64,000 nt of DNA from Thysanoteuthis rhombus (lineage: Eukaryota > Mollusca > Cephalopoda > Oegopsida > Thysanoteuthidae): positions 5,640,332 through 5,704,331 of the forward strand of contig OY735237.1 in the NCBI GenBank assembly GCA_963457665.1, given 5' to 3'. Both the position numbers and the translations under genes were made by a program. Of this stretch, positions 3,131 to 56,434 are shown one piece after another (within the stretch, counting starts at the first letter, position 1; every line of letters begins with the position of its first letter). The notes below the pieces were generated by a model. That model made no database searches. It was not told the origin of the DNA and saw only the letters and a list, made by a program, of their open reading frames with translations.

Positions 3131-4550
3131 GTACAGATAGCCACTATGTAGGAGAGGTAACTGTTCATAAATCCACTCAATATTTCAACTCACTGAAGAT
3201 CCCTCTAGCATGTTCAGTTGGTTTGATTAGTCAACTCGAAAATTCCTACAGGGATTGAACCTGGAAAACCCTCTTATATTTTTTGAATCCTGAGAGAAAT
3301 GCAATGGTTGATTGGGCTGTAAACTCTCAACATGCTTTCTTCATAAAATGTATTGTTATTTTTTCTCCAATAGCATTATGGGGTTCCTGTACACTCCAGG
3401 TGACAGAGATTCACTCCTCATGTATGTTAAAATCATCTAGGATTAAGCCTTTTCTTTATTTTCCCTGTCCATTGTTTAACTAACTAAATATAAGTTTTTG
3501 GTAGTATCATTTATTATCTATATGCTAGCACTCCTTGAACAAATTTTATTTTTCTGTCAAATTTCTACTACTCTTCATATTTTTATCTTTCTTAATACTT
3601 TGAAAACATAACCAGCAAATCTGGTTGAAAAACAAATTTCTTTTTTAGTATGAGAAAAATCTCAGTTTTATTCCTGAAAAATCAGAGATGCATATATTCA
3701 GTGGATTTAAGCTAATACTGAGACATTAGTGGAAGTGATGCAGACACAAAAATACTCTGTAGAGCCTTGCTTAACCCCCTTCCTCTCTTTCTGTTTGCTT
3801 TAGCATAACAGACACTAACAAGCAGACAAAAAAATAAGTTTTTATATTAGAAGATCTATTACTTACACCCTTGGCATTTCATGGTAAGGAGGATGTATTT
3901 CAAGTATATATTTGTGAATTTGTGTATATTTGAAGGTGTGTGTATGAATGTATAAATGAAATAAGGCAATTAAAGAATTTGAAATATTTCAGACTCATTT
4001 GTTTAATAGTTTTATGGTTCAGCTGAAATGGTAAGGTTAGTTTTGAAAATACATACTCTTATCAGAAAATTACTTTGCTATAAGATTATACAGGGGTAGA
4101 GGGTGGATGCCCCAAACTGCAGATGATACCAAAGCCTATTTACAAATACCTATGATGGAGTTTATTTAATGCATTTGGTACAATAAGAGTTTGACTGCAA
4201 TAACTAATAATGAAATAGAACAATCATAACAATATACTGTAATAAATTTAAATCTGAGCAACTTCAGCACTTTTTTTTTTTTTCATTCCTTATTCAGTTG
4301 AAAAAGCATTTACTTTTTCACCTGAAGGGAGCCGTTTACAGCTTTATTTTCACAGAACTAGCATCATAACTCCTGCGCTTTGATCCCATTTTTCAGTAAA
4401 AGTTATGAATTGTTTATTCCTGATTTTGATGGCGGGTAACTAAAAGCAGTGGATAACAGGGCATTGCTTCATCAGCTACAGAGATGAGGCTTGTTTTAAT
4501 TGTACTTGAATTTCTCTTGCTAAAACATATAAGTATGGACCCAACATCCA
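3131..4550. other. intergenic, nothing recognised
   Basis: AT-rich sequence without coding signal, RNA gene or obvious repeat of a family found elsewhere in the window. Confidence 0.4.
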
Positions 4551-9584: not shown

Positions 9585-9785
9585 GTGTTTTTGGTGTAAT
9601 TGGGTACACTCTTAGATGTGAGATCAGGGTGGAAGTATCCTTTCAGTGGACTTGCATTCTGCCAAGGGGGTGGTCATAAAAACTTGTAAGAATTAAATCC
9701 TGGTCTCGACCAGACATGAAACTTGCAAGGATCACTAAGCTGATGCACATGATGGAAACCAGGACTTCATCACTCGCCATAAATA
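9585..9785 (+). repeat. SINE body fragment, family with CTTGCAAGGATCACTAAG
   Basis: GGTCATAAAAACTTGTAAG...CTTGCAAGGATCACTAAG and the following segment match the bodies of the SINEs at 17317-17640 and 24947-25275. The tRNA-like head is absent. Confidence 0.65.

Positions 9786-16560: not shown

Positions 16561-16585
<25 letters not shown>
16497..16585. repeat. two (TA)n tracts
   Basis: TA tracts at 16497-16531 and 16560-16585 lie on either side of a 28-bp segment. The second directly abuts the hammerhead-SINE tail, so it probably grew from the SINE's 3' tail. Confidence 0.9.
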
Positions 16586-16589
<4 letters not shown>

Positions 16590-16591
<2 letters not shown>

Positions 16592-16870
16592 GTCATCCAC
16601 TGACAGCTGTTTCGATGTATTACATCTCTTCAGTGTGGCTATAGACATTCCATTATCCCATCCAGTACCGCGAGGCAGAATTGAAACCTTAACTTCAGAC
16701 CCGTAGGCCGATATCCTACCTACGGAACTGGACAGGCAGTAAGGTTGAATATAAGCGTTATATTTAAATTACACAGAAATCCCTCATCCACCAGAGTGCT
16801 CAATTCTTATAGAAGAGTATTGCATAAGCTTATACAGTGGATGAGTTACCTCACTTGAAGAGTGCTCAAC
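16590..16870 (-). mobile_element. tRNA-derived SINE with hammerhead ribozyme, copy 1
   Basis: On the minus strand a leader of about 150 bp is followed by a tRNA-like segment (box A-like near 16715, box B-like AAGGTTTCAATTC near 16685). Next come a conserved link, a type I hammerhead motif (16638-16597) and a (TA)n tail. The same block order occurs at 24500, 39320 and 52765. The combination resembles the Sm-alpha SINE-like repeats of Schistosoma, which also join a pol III promoter to a hammerhead. That comparison is from general knowledge, not alignment. Confidence 0.7.
16597..16638 (-). ncRNA. type I hammerhead ribozyme, core complete, stem II covariant
   Basis: Minus strand 5' to 3': stem I CCACA (16638-16634), core CUGAAGA (16633-16627), stem II GAUGU-AAU-ACAUC (16626-16614), GAAA (16613-16610), loopless palindromic stem III CAGCUG (16609-16604), UC cleavage site (16603-16602), stem I return AGUGG. 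All invariant core bases are present. Stem II differs from the other copies (GUUGU/ACAAC) by a paired change that keeps the helix. The innermost stem I pair is A-A here. Confidence 0.75.
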
Positions 16871-17316: not shown

Positions 17317-17640
17317 TTGAGTCCACTCAGATAGTGTCTTGGATAGCATGGAAAATTCTTCATCAAGACCAATTTCCCTGAGTACTCAGCAGCTAATTGA
17401 GTACACTCAAAACTGTGTGATTATGATGGAAGTATCTTTTCAATGGAATTTCTTCAGACTTTCTTCCAGCCAAAGGGAAGGTCATAAAAACTTGTAAGAA
17501 TAAAGTCTCGGTCTCAAGTAGACTTGAAACTTGCAAGGATCACTAAGTTGATGCATGCTACGGAAACTGGGATTTTTATCAGTGGTTGTATACTCCATTG
17601 GGAGTTGTCTCTCAGAAGATGGAGGCTTCACTTAACAGGT
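17317..17640 (+). repeat. SINE, family with CTTGCAAGGATCACTAAG
   Basis: A diverged head (CCACTCAGATAGTGTCTTGGATAGCATGG) is followed by TCAGCAGCTAATTGAGTACACT, GGTCATAAAAACTTGTAAG and CTTGCAAGGATCACTAAG. The order is that of the full minus-strand copy at 24947-25275. Confidence 0.65.
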
Positions 17641-18989: not shown

Positions 18990-19161
18990 TGTATCTCTGA
19001 ATTTTTGAGATGAGCTATTATTATTATTTCTATTAATATTCGGACCATCCTCATCTTGGTTGTTTTTCATACTTGATGAAAGAGTACAACGGCCAAAACG
19101 TTGTATGAAAAACAACCAAGATGAGGATGGTCCGAATATTAATAGAAATAATAATAATAAT
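18990..19161. mobile_element. palindromic element with decayed hammerhead core
   Basis: The left arm 19017-19072 and right arm 19103-19158 are perfect 56-nt reverse complements around a 30-nt centre. The centre has the hammerhead block order, with UUGAUGA (19073-19079) and AAAA (19095-19098) where CUGAUGA and GAAA would be expected, so catalysis is lost. The left terminus (TATCTCTGAATTTTTGAGATGAG) is the same as at 137 in the other copy. A short AATAATG-like duplication may flank it. It sits between two mariner relic segments. Confidence 0.7.
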
Positions 19162-23560: not shown

Positions 23561-23601
23561 AATGCTGGTTCAAGACAGCCAATTGTGTTTTAATTAGTAA
23601 A

Positions 23602-23983
23602 GTAAAGCATCTCGTCTCTCAAAAGACCTCTCCCAATGGAGTATGACAGCTGGTGATGAAGTCCCAGCTTCTTTTGCATGCGGCAGTTTAGTGATCCTCT
23701 CAAATCTGGCGAAGACCAAGATTTTATGACTATCCACTTGGCAAAGGTATTCTGCCACCCTAATCACACAGCAGCTAATTGAGTACACAGGAAAATTTGT
23801 CTTATTGAAGTTTTTCACTCATACTGGGAATTGAACCCAAGACCTTTTATGTATGAGGCAGATGTGCTAACCATTTCACCTAATGAAGAGTTTTCCACAC
23901 TCTAAGCTCATATCCAGAATCAAAACCAAGACCTTTTGCGTGTAAGACAGACGTACTAACCATAACACTATCCGGGCGGATGC
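23602..23983 (-). mobile_element. tRNA-derived SINE with duplicated head
   Basis: On the minus strand two tRNA-like heads occur in tandem (about 23983-23913 and 23885-23826). Each has a box A-like TAGTGTTATGGTTAG or TGAAATGGTTAGC block and a box B-like segment, separated by a repeated TAGAGTGTGGAAAACTCTTC-like linker. The normal body (TCAGCAGC... to GATGCTTTACTTT) follows. Other copies have one head. Confidence 0.7.
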
Positions 23984-24104
23984 ATTATAATCAAGCAGTG
24001 AAAAAATTTTGCTATTTTGAAACTAGATTGATATTTTGAGTTTCATCATCAACCCATATTATAATGCAAACCGCTCTTCAACAGGGAAGGCCAGTAGCTA
24101 CATG

Positions 24105-24488: not shown

Positions 24489-24493
<5 letters not shown>

Positions 24494-24494
<1 letters not shown>

Positions 24495-24690
24495 GTCATC
24501 CACAGACAGCAGTTTCATTGTATTACAACTAATCAGTGTGGCTATAGACTATCCATTATCCCATCCAGTACCACAAGGTGGGATCGAAACTTTTGCTTCA
24601 GACCCAGAGGCTGGCATTTCACCCCTACCCTACCAGTGACTTCTGCTTTCAGCAGTAGTACTTTACACGCAATAATATACACTGGTTAAT
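24494..24690 (-). mobile_element. tRNA-derived SINE with hammerhead motif, copy 2
   Basis: On the minus strand a tRNA-like segment (about 24630-24580) is followed by the conserved link and a decayed hammerhead (24541-24500), then (TA)n. In the hammerhead the core reads CUGAUUA (G8 lost) and stem III is CUGCUG, so it should be inactive. Stem II and stem I still pair. Confidence 0.65.
24500..24541 (-). ncRNA. decayed type I hammerhead
   Basis: Stem I CCACA/UGUGG, stem II GUUGU-AAU-ACAAU and GAAA are retained. CUGANGA is altered at the essential G8 position (CUGAUUA), predicting loss of cleavage. Confidence 0.6.
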
Positions 24691-24946
24691 CCTAGATGGA
24701 TTCAACAAAATAGACTTTCTGCAAATCTAATTTACAAGTGTAAATGTGTTCATAAATGAAATTTATATAATAGTCAACATTATGATGTAATACTTAGCAT
24801 TTAAATATAAGCTATTACTATCAACATTTTTAATATACTTTGATATATTTCAAACTTCTCAAAACTCAAAAACACTTTCTTTAATATTTAAGTTGATCAA
24901 ATCAAAATATAGTAACCATGATTTCTTATGACAGGTCAGTATTCAT

Positions 24947-25275
24947 ACAAAAAGCGAAGGTAAAGCATCTGTCTCTTAAGAGACAACTTCCATTGAAGTA
25001 TTAACAGCCGGTGACAAAGTCCCTGTTTCCTTAGCATGCATCAGCTTAGTTATCCTTACAAGTTTTCATAACCCCTTCCCTGGTAAAACTCAAGTCCACT
25101 GAGGGGATACCTTCACCCTAATCACACAGCTTAGAGTGTACTCAATTAGCTGCTGAGTGCACAGAGAAATTTGTCTTGAAGAGTTTTCCACTCTCTACAC
25201 TCATACCGGGAATTGAACCTGGGACCTTCTGCGAGGCAGATATGCTAACCATTACACTATCCAAGTGGACGCAAA
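24947..25275 (-). mobile_element. full-length tRNA-derived SINE with 9-bp duplication
   Basis: The minus-strand head starts at 25275, with box A-like TAGTGTAATGGTTAGC and box B-like GGTTCAATTCCCGG near 25205. The body of about 240 bp contains CTCAGCAGCTAATTGAGTAC, AACTTGTAAGGATAACTAAG and a 3' end GATGCTTTACCTT. It is flanked by AGTATTCAT at 24938-24946 and 25276-25284. The head resembles a tRNA (Val/Glu-like) but this is only suggestive. It is the best-preserved copy of this family in the window. Confidence 0.8.
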
Positions 25276-25688
25276 AGTATTCATTTGTTGTATTACACAG
25301 CGATATCTAAGTACAGATTCGCTGAATGTAGACTACTCAACCCCAGATTAGTATTTTTTTATTCTTTTATTGGGTTTTTTTTATCTGATTTTCAAATTTG
25401 TTTTTCCATGTTCTTTCCTTTGACTTTTTCATTTTTTTTTTTTTTTCCTTACATCATTACTTTTTAGTTCTTACAAAGCACAGCTTAGTCTGGTTCAAGG
25501 CTACTAGTGTACAGCACCCCGAAAAGATGGAACTTGTTACAGTCGTAAAGATCTGCAAGACTGATTAGCTGATCATTACTCGGCGTCAAGGAGAATGCCC
25601 GTTCCTGCTGAGCCAACGGTCCTGAAAGGCCCAGCTGCATCTCTTGCCTTGGGTGGGAGTGATGCCTCCCAACAGTGTCACCATACAA

Positions 25689-26110
25689 CTGCTGGAGAGG
25701 TACAAGCTAAATGTTATCCAAGTCTATGCTCCCACCTCGCAATCAACCGAAGAAGAAATAAACAACTTATATGATGACTTGATTTCCCTACTCCAAGATA
25801 CCAAAAGACACTTCAATATCATCATGGGAGATTTCAACACACAAGTAGGACAAGGAAATGAACGCTGCATCAGAGAATTTGGATACAAAAGACGAAACGA
25901 GAGAAGTGAGGACCTGGTAAAATTTTGCAACGGCAAACAACTTCAAAATTATGAATACTTACTTCAAAATGAAACCCAAAAGAAAATGGACTTGGAAGAG
26001 CCCCAACCATGAAACCAAAAACGAAATAGACTACATTTTATCAGACAAAAGCCGCACCATCAAAGATATCTAAATCCTAAACCAAGTGAATGGATGGAGC
26101 GACCATAGAA
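25689..26110 (+). pseudogene. LINE endonuclease domain, truncated
   Basis: LNVIQVYAPTSQSTEEEINN and IIMGDFNTQVG are the central endonuclease/exonuclease/phosphatase motifs. After a frameshift near 25975 the frame reads NEIDYILSDKSR and, past a TAA at 26073, WSDHRMVRC, giving the catalytic D-x-I and SDHR motifs. The N-terminal NxWN and catalytic Glu motifs are absent. Confidence 0.85.
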
Positions 26111-26117
26111 TGGTAAG

Positions 26118-27995
26118 ATGCAAATAAACACAAGTAAAGAACGCAGGAAAATGTTCCACACTAGGCCGCAGCCACTAAACGTACCAAATGAACTCACCTC
26201 AGCCTTCAAGCTAGAGTTGAAAAACAGATTTGATATCCTTACCAATGAAAACGACACCAACGTCAACGAATTCCACAACAAAATAACAACCTCTCTATTA
26301 GAAGCAGTGCATAAGTTCAAACCAAGAAACTCAGCAACCATTAGCAAAATCTCAGATGGTACCAGGAAACTGAATGAAAAGCGCAGAAACCTCAAACCAC
26401 CAACGACCAAAAGGGAGAAAATAAAAGAAATCAAACTGAACAAAACAATAAAGAAGAAACTAAAAGAAGACAAAAGAAGGTATACGGCAGCCATCATCGA
26501 GACCAACCTTGAAAAACGTTGAGGATTTAAAGCAATAAACAAAGCTCTCAGTACAGGAAAGAAACAGATAACTAGCATTCTCGAAGCAAACAGAGACAGA
26601 ATAGTTGAATGCGCCCAAGAATTTCACCAGGAACTCTACTCTTCAAAACATGGACAATACAACAATGACCAGAATACACAAGATGCCGACAATCAGTCCG
26701 AAGACTTCCCCGAAGTTACACCATGGGAAGTAAAGCAAGCCATTAAACAAATAAAAAAAGGAAAAGCCCCTGGACCAGATAACATCACCATTGATCTACT
26801 CAAAAAAGTTGGTAAAAGAGTCAACAGAAAGCTAGTTATTCTATTCAACTTGAGTATGAAACAGAGTAAAGTCCTGAAAGACTGGAACACTGCTATTATA
26901 ATGCTTCTACACAAAAAAGGTAACCCCATAGACCTCAACAACTACAGACCTAAAAGCCTGCTCAACTGCATATATAAACTTTTCACAAAAATCATCACCA
27001 ACCAGATCACTAAAACACTAGATGAGAATCAACCACGGGAACAGGCTGGATTTAGAAGAAATTACTCGACCACGGACCATCTTCATTCAATAAATCAGCT
27101 AAAAGAGAAGGCAGCAGAATACAAAATGCCACTCGCTGTAGCATTTATAGACTTCAAGAAGGCATTCGACTCTGTAGAAAGACATGAAGGCCATCACCCT
27201 ACAAGGTGTAGACTCTATATATGTTAAAGTAATGCAACACATATACAACCACAGCAACTCCTTCATTAGGCTACATAAGGACTCCGAAACGTTTCAGCTC
27301 CAAAAAGGAGTAAGACAAGGTGATACCAGCTCACCCAAACTCTTTACAGCCTGCCTTGAGAAGATCTTCCGGAACATGGACTGGGAAAATAGAGGAATCA
27401 AAATAGATAGCAGATACTTGAGTAACCTTAGATTTGCAGACGACATCGTCCTTTTTGCAGAGAACCTACACGACCTCCAACTAATGCTAAATGATCTAAA
27501 CGAAGAAAGCAAAAAAGTCGGCCTACACATGAACTTCAGTAATACAAAAAATCATGTGCAATAATCATGTTGAAAATAAGAACGTAACTGTCAAGATAGA
27601 AGATGCAAAACTCGGCAAGGTAGACCACTACATCTACCTAGGACAACGAATTTTCAGGAGACCCTCAAAAAAGGATGAAATCAAGCAAAGAATCACTTTG
27701 GGATGGCAAGCCTTTGGCAGAGCAAGCTCAAATTTCAAGAACCAGATGATCCCAATAATCCTAAAAAGAAGAGTATACAACCAATGCATTCTCCTGATAG
27801 TCACTTATGTAGCTGAAACATGGAACCTAACCAAGAGACAGACCTATAAACTAAGAAGTATGCAACGTGTGCATGAGAGAATCATGCTCAACCTTAGCTG
27901 GAGAGACCACAAGACAGCACAGTATATAAGGAAGATATTAAAAGACTCAAATGGCAATGGGCAGGCCATGTTGCAAGGATGAAAGACAACCGATA
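26118..27995 (+). pseudogene. LINE reverse transcriptase, frameshifted
   Basis: The order is a basic linker (26118-26522, Lys-rich), a stop at 26519-26521, then the RT fingers GKAPGPDNITIDLLKK, NNYRPKSLLNCIYKL, AGFRRNYSTTDHL, motif A AVAFIDFKKAFDSV (27138-27177) and a frameshift at about 27185. Then motif B GVRQGDTSSPKLFTACLEKI and motif C FADDIVLFAE (27435-27464). A stop and frameshift near 27560 precede HYIYLGQRIF and the C-terminal ETWNLTKRQTYKLRSMQ and WRDHKTAQYIR segments. The catalytic FADD Asp pair is intact. Confidence 0.88.
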
Positions 27996-28185
27996 GACAT
28001 CACTACTCACAACATGGATCCTCTGAGATCACATAAGAAACCAAGGCCAACAGAACACAAGATGGAGAGATGAACTGGACAGATTCAGGAAATACTGGCT
28101 CCGCGATGCCCATGATAGACCTTCCCCACGATTCGCCACAATTCTCTATGTCCAACAACGGACGTTAAAAGACTGATGATGACTC

Positions 28186-34900: not shown

Positions 34901-37900
34901 ACCAAATCTGTTGATATCAGAACTCGGCACTGAAACGCCTTGAGGCTGGCCATTGCTTCATTTCTTTCTTTCTGTTCCAGGGAGCCAGCAATGCAACAAG
35001 TTGGCCAACCTTGTTCTTCAAGTTTATACGCCAAACTCAGGGCCCTGATTTGGAAGGAAGGAAAACATGTCTGGTTAGTCATTCAATGGAAACTGTCATG
35101 TGACCAACGTTTTTTGGCAGTGTGCTGTTTCAATTAAGAAATTAGAAAAAGGGGTGATCAATGAATAAATTACTTCTGTCACCTTTTGTTGGGTGGTGAT
35201 CATTAAAGAAAATGTCTGAATTAAAAAACGAAAAAACAAGTGTGAATGCTGCCAGATACAAATTAAAGGACCAATTTAGTATAAACTTACATTGTAAATT
35301 AAACACCCACCAAAACCCTGAAAGGGGTATTTAAAAAAAACAAAACGTTTTCCGAGGCACAATGAGTAAATGTTTAGATTTTCATCCCTCTATTGTCATT
35401 GGTGTGGTCTGTGCACACAATGCAGATAGATAGCCAGAATCACTTGAAAACTGAAAAAACCCACAACAATTTTTAAAAACAAAACATCTGCTGTTTGTGG
35501 CAACATGTTCTTGAAATGACTTTGGGAGCAGACAAAGTTGTCCGTTAGTTAAAGTAAAATAACTTAAAATAACTTTTTAAAACTCATAGAATTACTGCTT
35601 CTCCTCATATACAGTCAAGCATTTTTAGAGGATAAAATTTCAGAACTTAACAGAATCATTCAGACATTCTCTCCCTTTGCCATTCCTTGACTTCTTGCAT
35701 TATATTTTATATATTTTTTAGAATTTTCATTGCTTAATTTTTGAACACTCCAATAAAACAAATAATTTGTCAGGGAGATCTCACATTGGATTTATTGTCA
35801 TTAACAACCAAGCAACTTGGCCAGAATTGTTTATTTCTGTAGGCTTTTGTGGAGCATAGGGCCATTCAGTGGTTCCAGATAAAAGTAGACTTTTAGGATA
35901 GAGTTGCTAGCCCCATGCCAAAATGTTTTTTTTTATATTCAGAGTATCCTTTTATTCATATCAATGGTTTTTAACCAGGGTGTGTGAAACCCTGTGCATG
36001 TGTGTGTGTGTGGGGGGCTAATTTTCAAGTGGGGGGGGGCAGGCCAGGAGAAAAAGAAAAGAAATAAAAATTCTCCCATCATTTTGTGAATTCTTTTAAC
36101 AAGTGTTTGCATAATATCCTGATGAAGAGGATATATTGAAATCTATTTTTTCACATATTTGCGGTATCCATTAAAAACTAATCACTTGGTTGAAGATGCA
36201 AGGGTGGGGCATGGGGGCACAATCCAACTACTAATGGGAGGAGGGGGGTAAAAGGTCATGAACCACAGTCTTAGATGTATGTTAATATTGATGTCTCTAG
36301 ATTCTAATCATCAACTGTATACAAATCGTAATGGCAGTAGTATTTTGATCTTGGCAAATAGTTTTGATGGTACATGGCAAAGTTGCTGGATTTGGCCAGA
36401 AGGGGAAATAATCCAAGCTTTTTCTTAGACACTTACCCAATACAGGCATTGTAATGGTGTGAAATTTGAATTTGAGGCTTGACTCAAGAGGCTGTCATTG
36501 AACTCCTGCCTCCAGACTGGCTCGATTTTGAAATTTGATATTATTCCAATGCCTATACTGGGTAAGTCTCGGGGATGAAGCTATGTTTATCTCCCTTTTT
36601 GGCCAGATTTGGCAACTCAGGTCTGTGGCTAATCAAGGAAGAAACATTTGACAAATCCCACTTACCCTGATTGGAGGTTTGAAAATATCAAGCACTGGTT
36701 GAAGGAAACAGACGAGAGGATTTTGATGGCTGCTTCAAAACTATATTCAGCTGCTTTTTGCACGTGCGGATGGAAGGGAATTTTCAGATAATACTGTTTG
36801 ATACCTGAGTTGAAAGAAGAAAAAACCTTTCAAAAAATATTCAATAATTGCGAAAAAGTAGCTCTCTATTTTGAAAACTTCACCAAAAGATTTCACATAT
36901 TTTTTATGTTTGATACTTATCTATTCTATTTACCACAACTATATAAGTTCATATAACTACAGTTTCAAAAACAGAAGTAGTGCCTCCAATAAAGCTTTTA
37001 TCTGCTGATGACATTGTGGTCAGGCAAGGTTTTACAGTTAAAACATCACCACTAACCCAGGGCACCCAAGCAATACCTAACTATATCACCAAGATTTCTT
37101 TGTTTCCAGTCAAAGTGTGGGATGGCAAGGTCCATGCAAATGCAACCTCTACCTAACCTGGGACTTTATTTCTATTCTCTCTTTTCTGATGTAGTCATAC
37201 TGAGTTTAGGTATGTCAGAGTTCAGTTGACGATAAAACTTAACATCTCATTTCCATAGGAAATACATTCATTATCCAACCATGTCTCATTCATTTTTTCT
37301 TATATTTTGCAACAATAAGAAGGCCGAAGAATGCAGCAGTCAAAATGCTGCAACGAGAGCAATAAAGAAAAAGATACCAAGCCAAAAAATGTACAGAATG
37401 ACAACATTGAAGTTCAATTAAAGGCACGAAGTATAACTAGAAAACACTAAGAGAATGCATACATCTGCTAATGCCACACACTATTCTTAAATTCCTGAAC
37501 TGTTTTGAACTGCTCCAAATTACAGTGGATAGTATAGAAAATAATGGAACTTTTTTGTAAATATAATACTATAAAATTTAAATATTTTTACATGATAGTC
37601 TATAGGAAGTAACTTTGCAGATTTATGGTTTCCATGACAGCATGGAGAGTATTCGCGCTAAGTATGATTGTTGACACGGAGATTGAACAGAGTAAAGAAG
37701 ACACATACAAGTATTGTGACGAACAAATGAAACATACATTTAATGCATAACATTTATGACAGTAAAAGACTGAAAATGGAATTCATATAAGAAAACATTG
37801 ATACGATCAATTGTGTAAAGAAGAGAAGAAGCCTGTTTAGTTTAGAGGGTTATTCCCATACGTAAAAATGAAACATAGGAAAGAATAAGTATTCAAGGGA

Positions 37901-38646
37901 CATATGACATAACGGGTTTAATGTTGTTTAGTTTATCTATCAGATGGAGCCTGATTAATAGCTAAATAAAAAAAATCACCCAAAAATTTTCTTGAAATTT
38001 ATTGAGAACTTTCAGAGATATCGTTTTGACAGACCCGAAGGAAAAATGGAAAAATATCTCTCAATCAAAAAACAAACTCCTGGATTAACACCAAATTTTG
38101 ATTACTTCTTCTTTAAATCATGGTTCACCCTTCCACAGAATGATATTGAAATTCATTCAGAACTCTTAGAGATATTGTGTGGAGAGATAGACAGATGGAA
38201 AGAAAGACACAGGGTAATACCTTTTAGCAGAGGTAAACAAACTAAAAAGCGTCACAGAATTTTTCAACTGTTGATAAATAAAACTTTCCATTCATTATTA
38301 TCATGAAATCCAAAAATGAAAATCAAGTTATCCTTACCTAAAAGAGCAAGCTGTGTTACATCAAGTCGTATATAAGTTGGGTTTCGCATATAATTCAACA
38401 GATGCCTTGTCATGAATTCTGGGTAAGTGGCAGACAAGGCTAAAATTTGTTTGTTCTCTGGCAAAACAGAATAAATCCAGCTGAAGAGAAAAGAAGAAAA
38501 AAATCAAATACTAAAATCAAAGGTTTTTTTATTACTACTAACATAGTTCACTTCATATAAATCATGACACAGTTTGAACAGAAACTTTTTTAAAAATAGA
38601 ATTCTCTGTAATTATAGGAGAATACCAGATCCATGTAAATGTACCT

Positions 38647-38731
<85 letters not shown>

Positions 38732-39475
38732 TGGAAGTTTGTCCAACAGAATGTAGTAATCATAAAGACAATTTATTTGGAAACATATTTAGTCTGGCAC
38801 CGGAATTAACCAAGTAGCAAATCATACAGCTGAGCACATCAATGAATAAAGACAGCTTATTTTTTTTTCTATTCAATTATATGATAAGCCGTTTTATTCA
38901 CTATTCAATTAATTCTGGTGCCAGACAAAATGTTTCCAAATAAATTGTCTCTATAATCATCAAACACACACACATATCATACAATACAAATCACAGATGC
39001 AATATGATACAATATCTGATATATGATGGGTTCATCTCAAAGTGCTCAATACATTCAACTTTAAACATTAAGTTGGTTTAAAGTAGAGCTTAAAATAAAA
39101 TGGAATGAGGATTCACTACACAAACATGTTTATGTTTATGTCGTGTTTTATACATATATATATACACACACACACACAAACTAAGCTTAGCATAATCAGC
39201 CTCGAAACCACACAAGAGAGGGGGGGGGGAGTTCGCATTGCACAATGACCTGCTTAGTGGCACCTGCATAAAATATGTATCAAATATACAATTTATATAC
39301 ATATATATATATATAATCATGTCATTCACAGACAGCTGTTTCGTTGTATTACAACTCTTCAATGTGGCTATAGGCTCGATATCCCTTCCAGTACTGCAAG
39401 GACCCAGAGGCAGATGCTCTACCCCCGCCCTACACAGAATAGACAGTCAGTATGACTGAATTAAGCGATATATTT

Positions 39476-39521
<46 letters not shown>

Positions 39522-51013: not shown

Positions 51014-54000
51014 GATTCTACAAAGATGGCAAACAAATGTTTCCAAGTTTATGTTTTATAAACTACAGCACCCATACTAGCTGCAAATTTGTGTACAAAA
51101 GTAACTTGATCCCAGGGTGAAGAGAAGATAGGTGGCACTGACCTTTGGTGACCTGTAAAAAAATTTAGAGTCAGGTCAATTTTGTCATTTTCTGATCTAA
51201 GGGAGACAATTCACATTTTTAGCATTTTCAAGTCCAAGGGAGCCTGTGTAGCTGAATTTGAGATTTTTTTTGTGAGTGCAAGTCTGCAGGGACTGGGGGA
51301 CCAACGATTGTGGAAGTACATGAGTGTGAAGCCAAGTCTATATGAAAAAAGAAATGCAAACAGAAAAAAAGCTGTTCAAAATACCTGGGTTGCCGAACTT
51401 TCCACCTGAAGACCTTCTAATGCCACAACAGTAAACACACACGTCTTTCCAGTCCCTGCTTTGGCTTGAACGATCAAATCTGCAAAGACAAAGAAAAATT
51501 TACAACTATTGACCTCTTAATTTTTCGACATTTAGATGGCATTAGGAACATTTAGTTAGATCACAAAATTCACTTGTCATTTATTTTTCTTTTACTCAAC
51601 TGAATGAACTTCTTTGGGTAATCTAAAAAGTCTTCAAAAGACTGAAAATAGAAAGTATTTACTTATGGACAGCACGACTCACAACATGGATCCCCATAGA
51701 TCACACGCGGAACTGAGGCCGGCAGAATATTAGATGAAGAGACGAGCTCAACAAATTCAGAAAATACTGGCTCCACGACGCCCAGGACAGAGAATTGTTG
51801 TGAATCCTGGGGAGGGTCTATATTCAACAACGGACATTAAAAGACTGATGATGATGATGATGATATGAGATGAATGGTTCACAAAGGCGTAAGGGAACTA
51901 TCACTCACTGTAATTCATCCAAGCCCCATGACTGTCCATTTAGAGCATGTGTAGGGGTAGACAGCAAAGGGATTTGGGTTGGCCCGAAGGCAAATGTTGG
52001 CATTCTAAGCTTACATTTTGTTTTGAACATTCTATCTTTTCAACAGATTCAAAAGATGCCTAGATTGAATTAAATTGTGACAAAATTGACTTCTTTGATT
52101 ACTAATTGGCTTTTAAACACAAATGATGCTTTTGCATGTTTTATGCTGAATCGGTGGAATTTCAACTTCGGTTACACAAAAAAAAATAAATGCTTAGTTT
52201 TAATTTGATCAAAATAAGGATATAAAACAGCAACTATTTTTTTAAAGTTTATATGATTAAATGCAATCAAATTTTTCTTTAACAGAAAAATTAGTAAATT
52301 TTTTTTCAAATAAAATTTCACCAATTTGATGTTACGCACGTAACATTCATTGATTTGAAGCAAAATAAAACTATCTAAACAGACAACTCTCATATTTCCG
52401 AATTTCTATGGCATTAACCAGGCCCACCCTCCATCCATTAAGATGTGACCTGGCCCACAGAGGAAAAAAGATTGCTGACCACGACTTTGGTAGACAGTAC
52501 CCTAGTTATAATACCAGCTCTTTTCCAAACTAAAAGTCTGTCTTACATATTAGTATATGCAGTAGTTAGTATGAAAAACTTTATTGGACAATGAATGATA
52601 AATCTGGCTCAAGGCTAGATTCTTAGTGAGGAATTAATTCATTGACTGGGAAGCCAATGCAATTACCAGAAGGGATTTGTTAGACTAGGCTAATTTTAGA
52701 ACAAGACCACATTCAGAAGGAACCAAGAGAAACACATCGATAAGTATATAATAATTGATAATTGTGTCATCCACAGACAGCTGTTTCGTTGTATTACAAC
52801 TCTTCAGTATGGCTGTAGACAATCCAGTATCTCTTCCAGTACCATTAGGTAGGGGCGAAACCTTCGCTACAGACCCAGAGGCAGTTGTTCTACCCCTGTC
52901 CTACGCAGAACTGGACAGTCAGTAGGACCGAATTAAGCGATATATTTACTGATGCATAATTCCCCATTTATCAGAGTGCTCTATTCTGGAGCTGGAAGAG
53001 CATTGTAGAGCAGCTTATAGTAGACGAGTGCCCTACCCAAGAGTGTTCAAAGCTAAAGAAGGGAGTGTTAATTATATATATAAATATATATCCACAAACA
53101 AATATACAAAACTGGGCAAAGCTTTTTTATAATTTTTTTTTGCAATTACTCTGTTATTCTAACAATTATAAGTGAATTATTCAATGATGTTATACAATAT
53201 TGCATGCAGTGTTTGCGCACAGAATATGTTCTACTGTAGGATAGCTTTTCCCTTGTTTTTTATTCAGAAAACTGATCCACTTCGGCAAAGAAGTTGGTAA
53301 CAGTGTGCTGCTTCAATGTTGTTCCGTCAATCTGTGGTCATTGCACACAAATTTCCTCCCAACCAGTTTGGCCTTGATATGGACCCATATGTTCTCTATG
53401 ATGTTAAGATCTTTTATATGATGGGGAGTGTTTGGTTCATTTTTTTTGTCTAGGAATACATGCACGTGCACACACACAAGCATACAGTCAAATCAAAATC
53501 AATTCACTTAATGGACCCAATCATAGATTTTGATGGAATTTCAGGAAGCGGCACTTTTTCTAGAGCGAATATAACCCAAGAAATTTCAACTTGATTCAAC
53601 AGATAATTCAGAAGTTATAAGAAATCAAAATCTGCTAAAAATATCTTCTTTTCAAAGTATAGAAAGTAACAGTCAATTGAAGAAAGGATTAAAATTTTGC
53701 TGAATTATAGTTCAATCTATCCTCTTCCATTCCAAAAAATTCAAAAACTCCTACTCATATCTAACTTGGCAGAACTGCTACAAAAAGTGCTACATTTCTG
53801 AGAATTCCAACCAAGCACCAAAGTTTCAATGAATTGAAGCACTGAAAGTGACAGAATCTATGTCAAAAGGCATCAAATCAAATGGATAACATTGTAGTAT
53901 GGACTACTGCAGGTCACTTATAGGAATCTCAACAAAATTGTCCCTTTGACTTGATGCCTTTTGACCTGGATTCTGTTACTTTCCAGGCTTAAAGAAAAAA

Positions 54001-56434
54001 TAAAATAAAATTTTGGGTATTTATTGTAATGATCCTGTTTTGCTAAACAGGAAAGTATTTAATGCTTTTAAAATCTGTGTTTCAATGTTTTATACAAGGC
54101 AATACATCAAATGAATATAATCCAATGGAAGTTTCATTTTACTGCCCTTAGTTTAGTTTCTATGACTGGCCAAAAATTTAGAATCCCCCCATCAAAAGCC
54201 ATTTTACCTCATTTTGAAGGACTTATAACTTCAAGGTTACCAAATTTCAGCTTGACATCTTCCTAAATAGCATATTTATGAAGTGCCAAATATGGCATAA
54301 TCATGATTAGAGCTTGCAGCAGAAAATTTGAGCAAATTTTAATTTGTTCAATCAAACTGAAATTTTCAGGGTGAATTTTTTCTAGAAAATGTATTAGTAA
54401 CTAAAATTACATAAAAATCGAAGATAGCACACATGAGGACTTGAGAAATATAAGGTGATCTGATATGGAATGACCCACACACATATATATATATATATTA
54501 TATATATATATATGTGTGTGTGTGTGTGATTGTAAATCAGCAATTGCTCAAACATTGTTAGTTATCATTTGTCTGCAAATTGTAAGCACCCCAAAGGTCA
54601 TTGCTTTTTGATGCATTATCACATTATTGAGTTAGCCGAATCAAAATATGTCAAGTCTTCAGAAGGCAACTTCTGGGGGAATTGGTACAGCTGAGAAGAA
54701 AGGGGCAATGGACATAAAAACACATTGTGAAACAAAGGAACTGGAACAAGAAGGCAAACATGATGTATCAAAAAAATATCTCTTGCTTATTCTTTGTGTG
54801 GACCTAGAGCAGTGATAATGAACCTTTTTAGCACAATGTCGGAATTTTAATTTTTCGAATAATACCTACTTATATTGGAGTGTCACTTACATATATTGTA
54901 GTTTTAGGTAAATTCTTAAAGATAAGCAGCCTATCTTTCTAATATATTTATAAAAACTAGGAGTTTAATAAGTCATAACTTGAAATTTCAAAATATACTT
55001 ATGAATCTGAGATAATGAAATGAAATTTGAAGTCTTTTTCTTCTTCAAGGTCAATTAGGTGTCACCTAAAAACCTGACACAGGTGTCATAGATCCACCAT
55101 CGCAAGCTTAGTCTCACGTGAATCTATGACTCTCCTCTTCTCTGGTCTCCTTTCTCTCTCTCTCTCTCTTTAGGCTGGTTTTCCCTGATAAATGGCATCA
55201 CCCTTTCCTTCGTCTTGTCAGTCTCAATTTAGTCTTCTCATCCATTAGAGGCCAGGAATATACATACCCAAATATATTTGCCAAGACACAGCTTTGTATG
55301 TAGAAAAAAGTAGTAAGAAGTTTCAACATTAGGATGAAAAATGGCAGGCAAACAACATGTGTCACTGTAAGAAAAATAACCGATTCTGCAATAGGGGCTA
55401 CACTGTGACCAGCGCTGGTAAGTCGTTTGTTTTATTGCTTAGGCTAAAAGGAAATGACCTAAGAAGATGTGGGACTACTAGCGTATTTTATCTATGGGTG
55501 TATTTAGATCCATATTCTGTTTAGTGATGATTTTAGCTGAATGGAAGTGAGGTACTACAGATCTTTAATCAGAGATTATATGTAGAGATAATGAGGTATT
55601 CTAGCAGTTTCAATTATCGAATACAATGTGAGCATCGTTGATCCAAATGATCAAACTATCAGTTAATATCAAAGGAAACTGATTGTTACAAGTACAAGTT
55701 TCTTAACATGAGTGGAATTGTTTAGGAACATACAAGAAGAAATGTTTGAATTTTTTAATTATTATTCTGGGTGCGATATTATCACAATTTTAATTGAGGC
55801 TTAGTACTCCGAGTCAATAAAGTTAGTTGGTGTTATAAATGTGTTCAACAAAATTTTAAAAAAGATAATTTAACGTGAGAAACTGCAAGGGTTCTACAAC
55901 AACAACAAATGATAACTTCAGTCTGACATGAACAAGTGTTTTAACAGGTTGTGAAACTCCATGATTACACGAAGTGACATTGAAAGGGCTTTTTTTTATT
56001 TTATTCTAAATCGGAAAAAATACTTCATCAAAATAAAACAGAGCTGTCAGGATGAAGATAACTTCGTAAAAAGTTACACTTGACACTCTTAGAGGTTTCT
56101 GAACTTAGTTTGATTAAAAATTGAAAAATAAAAAGAGAAGAGAAGAAAACCATTTAAAGCGAAACAGATATCATTGTGCACCGAGACGATGATCATGCAA
56201 CTAAAAATGCCCACAAAGAGGGACTTGAACCTCACCTAAGCCACATCGTCCCAGTGGAATAGATTTGAGTTGAATCGGTGAAGGTCTGAAAAAGCCGGCA
56301 TTTTTCAACCCTTTCAAAACATGTCGAGAGAGAAGCATGCCCTCAAAATCGACATTTTCGGAAATTTCAATGTCCTGGGTACGAATTATACTATCGTTAG
56401 AGATGTCATGGGCAACTTTCGCTGAAGAGTCCAT
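30143..56434 (-). CDS. DDX20: DDX20 (Gemin3) DEAD-box RNA helicase, ten coding exons
   Basis: The ten exons splice in frame to 3,015 nt, encoding 1,004 residues plus stop (human DDX20 is 824). DDX20 is an ATP-dependent RNA helicase of the SMN complex that helps load Sm proteins on snRNAs. Motifs in order: Q-motif [17 protein letters not shown] (~51-67), Walker A AKAGTGKT (72-79), PTREIA (104-109), GG and GTPGR (to 156), DEAD (177-180), SAT (208-210), STDLTSRGID (330-339), HRIGRAGR (360-367). The helicase core spans about 45-400. Residues 403-1004 are a Ser/Lys-rich tail ending in an acidic-Ser stretch and a Tyr/Gln-rich C-terminus, as in other animal DDX20. The start ATG has A at -3 and G at +4. 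Every junction obeys GT-AG. Confidence 0.96.
31951..32430 (-). other. DDX20 intron 9
   Basis: A 480-bp intron in phase 1, donor GTGAGT, acceptor TTTTTGCAG. AT-rich with no recognised element. Confidence 0.8.
32431..32532 (-). CDS. DDX20: DDX20 exon 9
   Basis: 102 nt, acceptor TTTTTCATGCAG, donor G|GTGAGT. Encodes [20 protein letters not shown] and [13 protein letters not shown], the end of the second RecA domain, matching the conserved end LPLPDP of DDX20. Confidence 0.92.
32840..32998 (+). repeat. short tandem repeat with TTTCAGGGGAGGTAA
   Basis: ATTTCAGGGGAGGTAA occurs three times (about 32882, 32918 and 32964), two of them followed by ATCATATT. An eroded unit (GGGAGATAAATTATG) lies just before. 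Unit length is 36-48 bp. Confidence 0.7.
33820..33960 (+). repeat. dispersed repeat shared with 47180-47320
   Basis: GGCAATAAAGATTGGAAGGGATAAGGG...GAAGCATGAGATGATAGA...AACACCCAAGGAATTTC matches the intron 2 copy in order at about 75-80%. The purine-rich centre may be recombination-prone. Confidence 0.55.
34234..34339 (-). CDS. DDX20: DDX20 exon 8
   Basis: 106 nt, phase 0 acceptor TTATTCAG, donor G|GTAAAT. Encodes [19 protein letters not shown] and HRIGRAGRF, helicase motifs V and VI, with Arg residues needed for ATP hydrolysis. Confidence 0.95.
34690..34745 (-). repeat. RTE LINE 3'-end fragment
   Basis: The reverse strand reads GGAAGGTCTATGTCCAACAACGGATGATAAAAGACTGAT, matching the ends of the LINE copies at 28120-28185 and 51810-51866. 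It lies in DDX20 intron 7. Confidence 0.7.
34903..35044 (-). CDS. DDX20: DDX20 exon 7
   Basis: 142 nt, acceptor CCAAATCAG, donor GTGAGG. Encodes [20 protein letters not shown] and RVLISTDL. It covers the second RecA domain and the first half of motif V. Confidence 0.93.
35045..36665 (-). other. DDX20 intron 6
   Basis: A 1.6-kb intron. 35070-35350 is a dispersed repeat shared with 61650-61880 and 43060-43110 (GGACCAATTTAGTATAAAC...AATTAAAC). 35847-35935 is a fragment of the GTGGAGCATAGGGCC repeat. A G-rich tract lies near 36010-36045. Confidence 0.7.
35847..35935 (-). repeat. SINE fragment, GGAGCATAGGGC family
   Basis: TTTTGTGGAGCATAGGGCCATTCAGTGGTTCCAG...GAGTTGCTAGCCCCATGCC matches the 3' ends of the copies at 41795, 57815 and 63186. 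Confidence 0.55.
36666..36804 (-). CDS. DDX20: DDX20 exon 6
   Basis: 139 nt, acceptor TTCAACTCAG, donor GG|GTAAGT. Encodes [20 protein letters not shown] and [12 protein letters not shown], helicase motif IV. The junction gives Gly-Ala where the human protein has Arg-Ala. Confidence 0.92.
37483..37961 (+). repeat. large inverted repeat, arm A (intron 5)
   Basis: A 479-bp segment whose reverse complement lies at 40367-40834 with about 90% or better identity over its length. It includes a perfect run of about 113 bp (37691-37803). It is non-coding and of unknown class; the low divergence suggests a recent origin. Confidence 0.92.
37985..38215 (+). repeat. dispersed repeat, two tandem units
   Basis: CTTGAAATTTATTGAGAACTTTCAGAGATAT (about 37990) and ATTGAAATTCATTCAGAACTCTTAGAGATAT (about 38145) are diverged units 148 bp apart. 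The same doublet occurs at 62870 and 63035. Confidence 0.6.
38338..38480 (-). CDS. DDX20: DDX20 exon 5
   Basis: 143 nt, acceptor TTCTCTTCAG, donor G|GTAAGG. Encodes [20 protein letters not shown] and [20 protein letters not shown]. The SAT of motif III links ATP hydrolysis to RNA unwinding. It lies between the arms of the large inverted repeat. Confidence 0.95.
38651..38726. repeat. long (TA)n microsatellite
   Basis: About 38 uninterrupted TA units, among the longest simple repeats in the window. It is capable of cruciform extrusion. Confidence 0.97.
38755..38960. mobile_element. fold-back (MITE-like) element
   Basis: The arms 38768-38809 and 38908-38949 are reverse complements at about 38 of 42 positions (GACAATTTATTTGGAAACAT and its reverse). 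Weaker pairing extends outward to ~38755/38960. An inner block (GAATAAAGACAGCTTA against TAAGCCGTTTTATTC) pairs after a deletion in one arm. It has no coding capacity. The transposon family is unknown. Confidence 0.75.
39315..39479 (-). mobile_element. tRNA-derived SINE with hammerhead motif, copy 3
   Basis: On the minus strand this has the shared leader (CGCTTAATTCAGTCATACTG), a shortened tRNA-like segment, the link and a hammerhead motif (39367-39326), with (TA)n on both sides. It is inserted in DDX20 intron 4 in the sense orientation, so the motif would be present in DDX20 pre-mRNA. Confidence 0.65.
39326..39367 (-). ncRNA. type I hammerhead with C3 to U change
   Basis: Stem I CCACA/UGUGA, stem II GUUGU-AAU-ACAAC, GAAA, stem III CAGCUG and the UC site are all kept. 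The core is UUGAAGA instead of CUGAAGA. Loss of C3 normally abolishes cleavage. This may be tolerated because the copy lies sense inside an intron. Confidence 0.65.
39618..39729 (-). CDS. DDX20: DDX20 exon 4 (DEAD box)
   Basis: 112 nt, acceptor CTTTCTTTCAG, donor AA|GTAAGA. Encodes [20 protein letters not shown] then [16 protein letters not shown]. The DEAD tetrapeptide (residues 177-180) binds Mg-ATP. It lies between the arms of the large inverted repeat. Confidence 0.95.
39766..39945 (-). repeat. tRNA-derived SINE, CTAGT-tail family, minus copy
   Basis: Minus-strand head with box A-like AAGCTCAATCAATTAAAGC (about 39956-39938) and box B-like AAGTTCAAGTCTCGC near 39885. The tail GAAAGCAATCAAAATTCAG...AAATACTAGTCAAGAATTATT runs to 39766. 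It is paired with the plus copy that follows. Confidence 0.6.
39948..40147 (+). repeat. tRNA-derived SINE, CTAGT-tail family, plus copy
   Basis: Head GAGCTTCAAGAGCTAACTG (box A-like) and AGATCAAATCCAACC (box B-like). The tail AAAGCAACGGAAATTAGG...AATACTAGTCAAGAATTAAT ends at 40147. Tails point outward and heads meet at about 39947. Confidence 0.6.
40367..40834 (-). repeat. large inverted repeat, arm B (intron 3)
   Basis: The reverse complement of 37483-37961 (about 468 bp, roughly 90% or better identical). The arms are separated by 2.4 kb containing DDX20 exons 4 and 5. Confidence 0.92.
40890..41080 (+). repeat. SINE with two tandem tRNA-like heads
   Basis: First head: CGCCTGCTGTAGAGCAATG (40905) with box B-like GAGTTCGATCCTAACTG (40960). 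Second head: CGTCCGCTGTGGAGCAATGG (41026), truncated before its box B. A related head is at about 41670-41730. Confidence 0.55.
41530..41780 (+). repeat. tRNA-like SINE fragments, GTGCCAGACTAGGC family
   Basis: AAGAGTTCAACTCTTATTGGGTGCTCAGCTACTGTGATACTAAGC and a second partly overlapping unit ending TAGTGTGACCTTGTGCCAGACTAGGC. Both match the 24300 and 45000 copies. Confidence 0.5.
41795..42160 (-). mobile_element. SINE, GGAGCATAGGGC family, copy 1
   Basis: The minus-strand head near 42160 has box A-like GTGTAGTGGCGTAACCG. The body and 3' end (TGTGGCCCCATGCTCCACAAGG on the minus strand) match 63186-63545 and, in the opposite orientation, 57430-57815. Non-coding. Confidence 0.6.
42480..42830 (-). 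repeat. dispersed repeat, GAGACACAGA family
   Basis: ACTCATGCAAATTTTAAAAGTTGCAGCC...GGAATGCCTGGAGACACAGA is the reverse complement of blocks at 58790-58870 and 63890-63985. Confidence 0.55.
42900..43110 (-). repeat. dispersed repeat, inverted copy of 17800-18240
   Basis: TAGCATTCCAAGGGAAATTATGAATCACC and CTACCAGTATGGTTTGAATC are reverse complements of blocks at about 18095-18230. The part at 43060-43110 is shared with 35250 and 61810. Confidence 0.6.
43189..43261. ncRNA. near-perfect 73-nt hairpin in DDX20 intron 3
   Basis: Arms 43189-43220 and 43230-43261 (32 nt each) pair with two mismatches around a 9-nt loop. On the minus strand, which is the DDX20 sense strand, one of these becomes a G-U pair. 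Size and shape fit a miRNA-like precursor, but a MITE relic or a recent palindromic duplication is equally possible. Confidence 0.45.
43439..43607 (-). CDS. DDX20: DDX20 exon 3
   Basis: 169 nt, acceptor CTTCTGCAG, donor G|GTATGA. Encodes [20 protein letters not shown] (motif Ia), [11 protein letters not shown] (GG motif) and [11 protein letters not shown] (motif Ib with the next exon). Confidence 0.95.
45000..45160 (+). repeat. tRNA-like SINE fragment
   Basis: AGTTGTAAGTTCAATCTTCATTAGGCCACACCAC (box B-like) and a downstream CCTTGTGCCAAACTAAGCCGAGCTTAG match the 24300 and 41530 elements. Confidence 0.45.
46863..47060 (+). repeat. homopurine-rich tract
   Basis: About 200 bp of almost uninterrupted A and G (for example GGGAAGGGGGAAGAGGATG). 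It could form a triplex. It lies in DDX20 intron 2, so the transcript carries the pyrimidine strand. Confidence 0.7.
47815..48440 (+). repeat. dispersed repeat, plus copy
   Basis: The blocks AACTTGACCAAAGATG, ACTATAAAAAGCATCTAAACATGGGTGCAG, AGCCAATCCACTCACTCCTAC and ACAAACATAGGAAAAT recur in reverse orientation at 50219-50550, and the last two also at 49665-49740. The copies form an inverted cluster of about 2.7 kb. Confidence 0.75.
49665..49865 (-). repeat. dispersed repeat, partial minus copy
   Basis: TCCTATGCTTTTGTCCAAGTAGAAGTGAGTGACTTGGCTC matches the 50270 segment and the reverse of 48370. Confidence 0.65.
49935..49963. repeat. poly(A) tract
   Basis: About 29 consecutive A residues, followed by GG and another A-run. 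Confidence 0.9.
50219..50550 (-). repeat. dispersed repeat, minus copy
   Basis: The reverse complement of 47815-48440 with some internal deletion. The best-conserved block is CACCCATGTTTAGATGCTTTTTATAGTGTGACAG. Confidence 0.75.
50570..50695 (+). repeat. short tandem repeat, TTATTGGCATACCAGTTTACAG unit
   Basis: Three units (about 50574, 50616 and 50647) contain TTA(T/C)TGGCA(T/C)A(C/T)(C/A)AGTTTA(C/A)AGCC. Two continue with (T/C)(T/C)AGGGTGTTCT. The middle unit is shortened. Confidence 0.75.
50962..51010. repeat. (TA)n microsatellite
   Basis: About 24 TA units in DDX20 intron 2. Confidence 0.95.
51385..51479 (-). CDS. DDX20: DDX20 exon 2 (Walker A)
   Basis: 95 nt, acceptor GTCTTTGCAG, donor CAG|GTATTT. 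Encodes [20 protein letters not shown] then [19 protein letters not shown] (residues 72-79) is the ATP-binding P-loop. The split Asp codon completes the invariant RCGLD of the DDX20 Q-motif region. Confidence 0.95.
51668..51866 (+). mobile_element. 5'-truncated RTE LINE 3' end
   Basis: ACTCACAACATGGATCCCCATAGATCAC to AACAACGGACATTAAAAGACTGATGATGATGATGATGATA matches the 3' 200 bp of the LINE at 25485-28185. It is antisense to DDX20. Confidence 0.85.
52760..53075 (-). mobile_element. tRNA-derived SINE with intact hammerhead, copy 4
   Basis: Minus strand order: leader of about 150 bp (53075-52925), tRNA-like segment with box A-like CAGGGGTAGAACAACTGCC (52905-52887) and box B-like AAGGTTTCGCCCCTACC (52866-52850), conserved link (GGTACTGGAAGAGATACTGG), hammerhead (52812-52771), then an AT-rich tail. 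It is sense with DDX20 in intron 1. Length is about 315 bp. No clear target-site duplication was found. Confidence 0.75.
52771..52812 (-). ncRNA. type I hammerhead ribozyme, predicted intact
   Basis: Minus strand: stem I CCAUA (52812-52808) pairs with UGUGG (52775-52771) using one G-U. Core CUGAAGA (52807-52801), stem II GUUGU-AAU-ACAAC (52800-52788), GAAA (52787-52784), loopless self-complementary stem III CAGCUG (52783-52778) and U-C (52777-52776) complete a GUC cleavage triplet. All invariant core positions are present. Very short stem III is typical of hammerheads in metazoan retroelements, which cleave best as dimers. Confidence 0.8.
53225..53445 (-). pseudogene. Tc1-like transposase C-terminal relic
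   Basis: The minus strand reads [20 protein letters not shown], matching the Tc1 pattern W(P)xxSPDLNPIENxWxxLK, which carries the catalytic Glu. KLVGRKF follows, then a stop. The upstream catalytic Asp region is not recognisable. Confidence 0.7.
54475..54530. repeat. palindromic (CA)n(TA)n(TG)n microsatellite
   Basis: CACACACATATATA...TATATATGTGTGTG forms a self-complementary composite repeat of about 55 bp. Confidence 0.9.
56236..56434 (-). CDS. DDX20: DDX20 exon 1
   Basis: The coding part is 199 nt from ATG at 56434-56432 to the donor TTAG|GTGAGG. Encodes [40 protein letters not shown] and [19 protein letters not shown]. The FExLLLSRxVLxGL...[21 protein letters not shown] pattern is diagnostic of DDX20. 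Confidence 0.95.

Follow-up and report, generated by a model that had tools for sequence, protein, structure and literature searches.

The stretch of the Thysanoteuthis rhombus genome analysed here (64,000 nt of contig OY735237.1, hereafter the window) contains the DDX20 gene on its minus strand. Coding exon 1 (56434-56237) and exon 2 (51480-51382) were placed by tblastn with P0002, and the best PDB match of the helicase exons was human DDX20. The first coding intron (51481-56236, minus strand) holds a hammerhead-bearing element in sense orientation, as had been claimed in a preliminary description of this DNA, the exons being located on the minus strand on either side of the element. Several other repeats could be found in the window. 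An inverted repeat pair within DDX20 (37483-37960 and 40834-40365) extends over 478 bp with 89% identity. A broken LINE at 25644-28180 (plus strand) encodes endonuclease and reverse transcriptase domains (PF14529, PF00078), and its 3' part recurs at 51665-51854 and ends in AAAGACTGATGATG. A long self-complementary repeat at 19016-19159, with copies near 138-265 and 458-553, is probably MITE-like; microRNA precursor models scored far below their cut-offs on it. A genuine tRNA-like SINE family, distinct from the element under study, is represented at 24941-25300 (minus strand; RF00005 match of 43.1 bits at 25198-25266), with relatives near 23599-23984, 17317-17631 and 9597-9773. In the genome as a whole, a reflectin fragment matched open reading frames at 44 places (up to 77% identity, best E 3.6e-43), nearly all of them in one cluster; reflectins are not known outside cephalopods, and these genes mark the host as a cephalopod.

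A type I hammerhead ribozyme with a complete core and a predicted cut between 52776 and 52775 is located at 52814-52769 on the minus strand. In order, the motif reads CUGAAGA (52807-52801), the stem II sequence GUUG-UAAUA-CAAC (52800-52788), GAAA (52787-52784), CAGCUG (52783-52778) and UC (52777-52776). Stem I of this one copy has five contiguous pairs, a U-G pair among them. All core positions of the hammerhead consensus are present, in agreement with the preliminary description, which had also read stem III as the loopless palindrome CAGCUG. Such a stem is impossible in a monomer, where stem III is formed instead by two pairs (A15.1-U16.1 and C-G) under the palindromic tetraloop AGCU. The 8-nt palindrome ACAGCUGU makes intermolecular pairing possible in a hammerhead dimer. 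In a search with 801 bases over all 4227 Rfam families, the motif scored 23.4 bits with RF00163 (E 0.0045), and no hammerhead at or above the Rfam gathering score of 34 was found within the 64-kb window. In the covariance-model check that had been proposed, this copy stays under the cut-off, which two genomic relatives exceed. An apparently textbook hammerhead in the viral contig L002, also with a UAAUA loop, goes equally unreported by Rfam at gathering, so that failing this threshold is weak counter-evidence. A strict type I descriptor, drawn up after the motif had been seen, gave 31 matches when run on 586 Mb of Markov sequence that reproduces the window's dinucleotide content, corresponding to 0.0034 expected per 64 kb; in the window it gave two matches, both belonging to one repeat family. 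The hammerhead at 52814-52769 can be regarded as a genuine motif for which cleavage is predicted.

The hammerhead closes a retrozyme-like unit of 321 nt, present in one copy at 52776-53096 (minus strand), which begins with TGTGGAT and ends with the cleavage triplet GUC. Its start at 53096 is the equivalent of the base following a hammerhead cut, and its own cut lies 321 bases further on. A direct repeat (TGTTTGTGGAT and TGTCTGTGGAT, spacing 321, 91% identity over 11 nt) frames the unit, and the order of its parts is the same as at the junctions of genomic dimers. The 5' domain (52945-53060, minus strand) is common to the copy at 16 kb and to full-length genomic copies, and the middle of the unit (52816-52944, minus strand), in which boxes A and B had earlier been placed, has no match to the tRNA model. 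The stretch 3' of the predicted cut (52740-52775, minus strand) reads TGTGGATGACACAATTAT, leads into TA-rich DNA and constitutes a terminal redundancy; it is the presumed start of reverse transcription.

Three further copies of the element, likewise on the minus strand, could be aligned in the window. The second copy (16569-16869) has an intact core, in which stem II is altered on both sides to GATG/CATC, a compensatory change from U-A to A-U, and an A-A mismatch at stem I pair 1.1; RF00163 gave no match on it at E values up to 1. The third (39313-39478) is 5'-truncated, lies in sense in a later DDX20 intron and has C3 of the core changed to U. The fourth (24489-24633), also 5'-truncated and located past the last DDX20 exon found, has G8 changed to U, and the hammerheads of these last two copies are presumably dead. 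All four can be aligned, substitutions included, through the hammerhead and past the cut, with an identity of 88% in the hammerhead (264/300 letter pairs) and 76% in the body (453/594). Pair covariation among the four window copies alone was of the size reached by 132 of 500 shuffles. No tandem partner was found in the window: model R1 detected exactly the four copies at high score and no hammerhead upstream of them, which spoke against a retrozyme until dimers were met elsewhere in the genome. The earlier designation as a repeat family was borne out by these four minus-strand copies and by thousands of dispersed cores in the genome.

For the genome-wide survey, the 2.73-Gb assembly (514 contigs) was searched with the core pattern, leaving stem II partly free. 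Exact matches were found at 3,225 + 3,233 = 6,458 places, and the reversed pattern, used as a control, gave 0 exact matches across the genome. Among 100 listed matches out of the 6,458, the free stem II pair was A-U in 51, U-A in 44 and another combination in 5; stem II can thus be described as having two compensatory forms with rare intermediates. A query with the element returned 8,122 first-look candidates, 40 of which were scored and gave 48 matches, the 40 main ones with at least 83% identity; the first 30 loci, including that of the window, are the best-scoring from these 40. In the genome search with RF00163, 73 of 299,496 candidates were scored and 28 hits listed, nine of which were assigned by reading to this retrozyme-like family and 19 to another. 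Two sites, with 35.6 and 34.1 bits, scored above gathering, and by reading they belong to the retrozyme-like family. None of 14 control genomes exceeded RF00163 gathering, and weaker matches were present in 11 of the 14.

The genome also contains a second hammerhead-like repeat, mostly of about 56 nt (CTGAAGAATCCCAAACAGGACAGAAACATAAACGTGTTTGTGTA), in which stem I is ATTCGC/GCGAAT and helix III is long. It scores 22-31 bits with RF00163, carries an extra base ahead of GAAA in many members, and occupies the centre of loci L036, L038, L040, L041, L043-L047, L049-L053, L055-L058 and L060. Four of five scans of viral and prokaryote contigs for relatives of the element gave no match. Two viral contigs matched by a looser pattern were rejected as relatives, their hammerheads being their own; these hammerhead-like sequences (L001:1740-1850 and L002:4970-5080, minus strand) have a UAAUA stem II loop and stay below gathering in Rfam.

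In 10 of the 30 loci obtained with the single-copy query, a second, 5'-truncated copy is located head to tail immediately upstream, and the other 20 contain single copies. A second sample, all of it on C1, was made up of the first 11 loci, in map order, of 40 random draws from the 100 listed core matches, with the dimer L061 left out; all ten have intact cores. Nine of them are single and one (L103) has an upstream partner, or two of 11 are tandem if L061 is counted. Single copies are commoner than tandem ones among the ten C1 loci with their intact cores. A query with the dimer junction gave 44 listed matches, its own place counted, and in 41 of them the match extends over roughly 400 or more of the 591 query bases. 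In 35 loci, 33 spacings of less than 450 between neighbouring cleavage sites were recorded, with a median of 329; 27 lie at 310-345, the others being 70, 92, 134, 289, 305 and 414. One of these loci is a trimer, and three pairs have both cores intact. As 30 of the 35 loci had been chosen by a dimer query of that very period, the peak is partly selected, which lowered our confidence in filing the element as a retrozyme. Two dimers found independently of the dimer query, through the core-pattern listing, have spacings of 289 and 305.

At the dimer junction, the cut is followed by TGTGGATGACACAATTATTAATTATTAT and then by AACGCTCCCTTCTTTAGGGTTGAG. A related 3' stretch, with substitutions, was observed in the four window copies and in the 3' flanks of the 30 loci. 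By reading, none of these 30 flanks continues to the AACGCTCCC part of the junction, and homology ends in the AU-rich stretch. Many copies end in TA repeats, which would blur target-site duplications. At one further locus (L063; G000:C35:2596800-2597900), three cores, one of them intact, are separated by TA repeats at spacings of 92 and 70 bp, the rest of the unit being absent.

The state of decay was determined in 33 copies (29 genomic and the four of the window). The ribozyme is intact in 12 and damaged in 21; the term "apparently intact" holds for the core of the 52814-52769 copy. The commonest damage affects the CpG joining stem II to GAAA, where 11 copies have an A for G12 and seven a T for C11.1. 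At ten consensus CpG sites, 151 of 315 dinucleotides remain CG and 145 are now TG or CA, as would be expected if the repeats are methylated. Outside CpG sites, divergence from the consensus is 5.6% in the hammerhead, 9.0% in the 5' domain and 9.1% in the middle. The 13 nt past the hammerhead, with 4.7% in the same 33 copies, are equally conserved, and the constraint is therefore not necessarily catalytic. The pattern would fit selection on the 3' end, ribozyme included, in spreading copies, followed by neutral decay; conservation of the 3' end does not single out catalysis.

The element had first been described as a tRNA-derived SINE, and a SINE of this kind, with a hammerhead near its 3' end and linear pol III transcripts copied by a LINE, was considered as an alternative. 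Its copies are dispersed and 5'-truncated, they have a simple-repeat (TA) tail, single copies form the majority among the sampled loci, and a box-A-like match with one mismatch can be found. The tRNA derivation itself could not be upheld. The Rfam tRNA model gave no match in the element at E values up to 10 in the 64-kb window, nor at E values up to 1 in 20 of the first 30 genomic loci, while the other SINE of the window scores 43.1 bits and has 0 plus 1 box mismatches. ARAGORN detected no tRNA in the first 30 loci; its silence says little, because it also missed the true tRNA-like SINE of the window. The best total of mismatches to box A and box B is 5 in the 52776-53096 copy and 4 in the 33-copy consensus, a value equalled or improved by 65 of 300 mononucleotide shuffles of that consensus, which puts the boxes at chance level. 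In addition, head-to-tail dimers are present, and a 5' domain of more than 100 nt is located upstream of the supposed box A. As to a 3' end shared with a LINE, the one LINE compared (25644-28180) ends differently, in AAAGACTGATGATG. A much diverged tRNA head is possible, and a SINE origin as a whole appears unlikely. The Sm-alpha repeats of Schistosoma have a pol III promoter, which could not be shown in the retrozyme-like element here. Sm-alpha is otherwise similar, being a short non-autonomous repeat, described as a non-autonomous retrotransposon with type I hammerheads (PMC6155905).

About equally improbable is a remnant or non-autonomous derivative of a Penelope-like element with a minimal hammerhead in its pseudo-LTR. 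Penelope-like elements are reported to form tandem copies and to carry type I hammerheads in which helix III is minimal or missing (PMC7761336, PMC7229834), and the copies studied here are found at TA-rich sites. The minimal hammerheads of Penelope-like elements share with ours the type I architecture, a weak helix III, the tandem arrangement and a supposed cutting as dimers (PMC7761336, PMC11167929). However, a unit of about 330 bp is too small for the reverse transcriptase or GIY-YIG genes of such elements, and a short helix III does exist here.

The intron copy could also have been retained because its ribozyme regulates DDX20, in the manner of the hammerheads found in amniote introns. Its core is intact, it lies in sense in intron 1, and another sense copy is located in a later intron. 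Structure prediction for the 52814-52769 copy gave -3.9 kcal/mol for the monomer hammerhead fold versus a minimum free energy of -9.0, and -23.7 kcal/mol for a double hammerhead, whose helix III forms between the two molecules over 8 bp, versus -18.0 for twice the monomer minimum. The best homodimer fold (-26.4 kcal/mol) was not the double hammerhead. Compared with shuffles, the linear unit has a z of -0.55 and the lone hammerhead of -1.24, and for circular folds, tried in 9 of 28 units, the advantage over shuffles is slight (z -0.46 to -2.67). With a helix III this weak, a lone copy would probably be a poor cutter, and from the double hammerhead set against the weak monomer fold an isolated intronic copy is expected to cut poorly. 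Cutting of the DDX20 pre-mRNA would be possible and is disfavoured for an isolated copy. As the copy is moreover one among thousands alike and the core of the second DDX20 copy is altered, a regulatory role at this gene seems very unlikely. An accidental match to the hammerhead consensus, to which the score below RF00163 gathering could point, is practically excluded by the 0.0034 matches per 64 kb expected from the descriptor, the thousands of exact genomic cores and the compensatory change in stem II.

The element is probably a somewhat decayed single copy of a high-copy, non-autonomous and apparently non-coding non-LTR retrozyme of about 330 bp, bounded by type I hammerheads. The defining features of metazoan non-LTR retrozymes that were examined are present: a complete type I core; a distance of 150-450 bp between successive hammerheads (27 of 33 at 310-345, in loci that were mostly dimer-query picks); head-to-tail dimers or multimers (10 of 30 loci and one trimer, and one of ten in the C1 sample); and a GC content below 50% (0.445 in the consensus of 27 units). 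No LTR, PBS or PPT was seen in the unit by reading of the sequence. The element thus looks like a new family of a known kind, the known retrozymes having been compared by description only.

Metazoan non-LTR retrozymes are known from the coral Acropora, the mussel Mytilus and the axolotl (Cervera and de la Pena 2020, PMC7229834). They likewise have a type I hammerhead, units several hundred bp long that occur as tandem dimers or multimers, a GC content below 50% and thousands of copies; the copies sampled here differ in being mostly single, TA-flanked or 5'-truncated, and the likeness is one of description. The satellite repeats of newt and axolotl (Rtz331) are close in unit length (about 330 bp) and in their very short helix III with a palindromic tetraloop, and their hammerheads are described as weak on their own, with dimers cutting more efficiently (PMC7229834). 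Rtz331 belongs to an unrelated animal and is known to us by description, so the likeness in length is perhaps coincidence. Among cephalopods, 235 hammerhead 1 loci were reported in the giant squid genome, where they are classed among cis-regulatory elements; these are also matches to Rfam Hammerhead_1 in a cephalopod genome, and the available text gives no family or tandem structure for them (PMC6962438). The giant squid genome was the only report of cephalopod hammerhead ribozymes in the literature searched, and no report of a cephalopod retrozyme was found in it, which is no proof of novelty, as subscription journals lay mostly outside the search.

Had the retrozyme-like element usually been copied from cut linear monomers, many copies should start right after GUC. 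Copies at L013 and L101 and the 52776-53096 copy look so, and such 5' ends were considered as proof of cleavage; this was rejected, the counts showing no excess. Exact patterns extended upstream by three bases occur at 543, 448, 367 and 313 genomic places for one junction variant, with step ratios of 0.825, 0.819 and 0.853; the step across the cut is the one of 0.819, a loss for which mutation alone can account. No excess of copy 5' ends at the cut was therefore observed in these stepwise counts over the whole genome for one junction variant. This series concerns a variant other than that of the 52776-53096 copy, found with both stem II forms (e.g. at L101); the junction pattern of the latter's own kind has 14 exact places, too few for statistics. 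Copies that reach the cut appear to continue into a preceding hammerhead. The lack of a 5'-end pile-up would fit templates that were ligated, circular or multimeric, and would equally be seen if the RNA had never been cut.

Rare variants common to both halves of a dimer were analysed with exclusion of 44 common-variant positions and of CpG sites. Loci L066-L095 had been chosen by the dimer query; six of them, duplicates of earlier loci, were dropped from this test and from the inspection of 5' ends, from which L061 was additionally dropped. Over 30 loci, 25 rare variants are common to both halves, 0.83 per own-locus pair versus 0.27 per other pair (0 of 20,000 permutations); an earlier test on 10 loci had given p 0.008. 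Sharing is uneven, with none in 17 and one in 8 of the 30 loci, and L067 and L103 supply 10 of the 25. Halves of the same locus diverge by 12.5% and halves of different loci by 13.6%. Such sharing points to a common template, though it could also result from gene conversion within a locus or from source copies that already stood in tandem. Taken together, the 5' ends and the variants would favour circles or multimers, a preference separate from whether the ribozyme acts. It may further be that the re-insertion of retrozymes can be read from the genome, reverse transcription starting at TA-rich sites from one fixed position in the AU-rich part, some 30 nt beyond the cut, and going round a closed RNA circle for differing numbers of laps. 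Such a process would account for the 3' ends that copies have in common, for partial dimers whose halves share private variants and for the absence of a 5'-end excess at the cut; the 17 of 30 dimers with no shared rare variant reduced its probability, and it is put forward tentatively, with our judgement leaning slightly against it.

For the spread of the family, we propose that genomic copies are transcribed, and that their hammerheads would cut the RNA into units of about 330 nt, as suggested by sequence and predicted energies; because helix III has two pairs only, they would work chiefly as dimers. By analogy with published retrozymes, host RNA ligation would circularise the units, or uncut multimers would persist, and the RNA unit junction across the cut is predicted to read GTC-TGTGGATGAC. 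A borrowed reverse transcriptase may then start on TA-rich target DNA, at the AU-rich sequence that follows the cut by about 30 nt, and copy one or more rounds of the template. This putative mechanism would yield the observed architecture, in which monomers are 5'-truncated, head-to-tail dimers are partial and the 3' end is the same in both. The copy in DDX20 intron 1 is probably a passenger, and any cutting of the pre-mRNA would be weak.

Retrozymes are thought to spread via small circular RNAs. Which template the reverse transcriptase actually copies can be tested on the thousands of intact cores and many partial dimers described here, a large natural record of insertions that offers the position of 5' ends with respect to the cut, the variants private to a dimer and a fixed 3' start. 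The Hammerhead_1 annotations of squid genomes may also be explained by these elements, if they belong to the same family.
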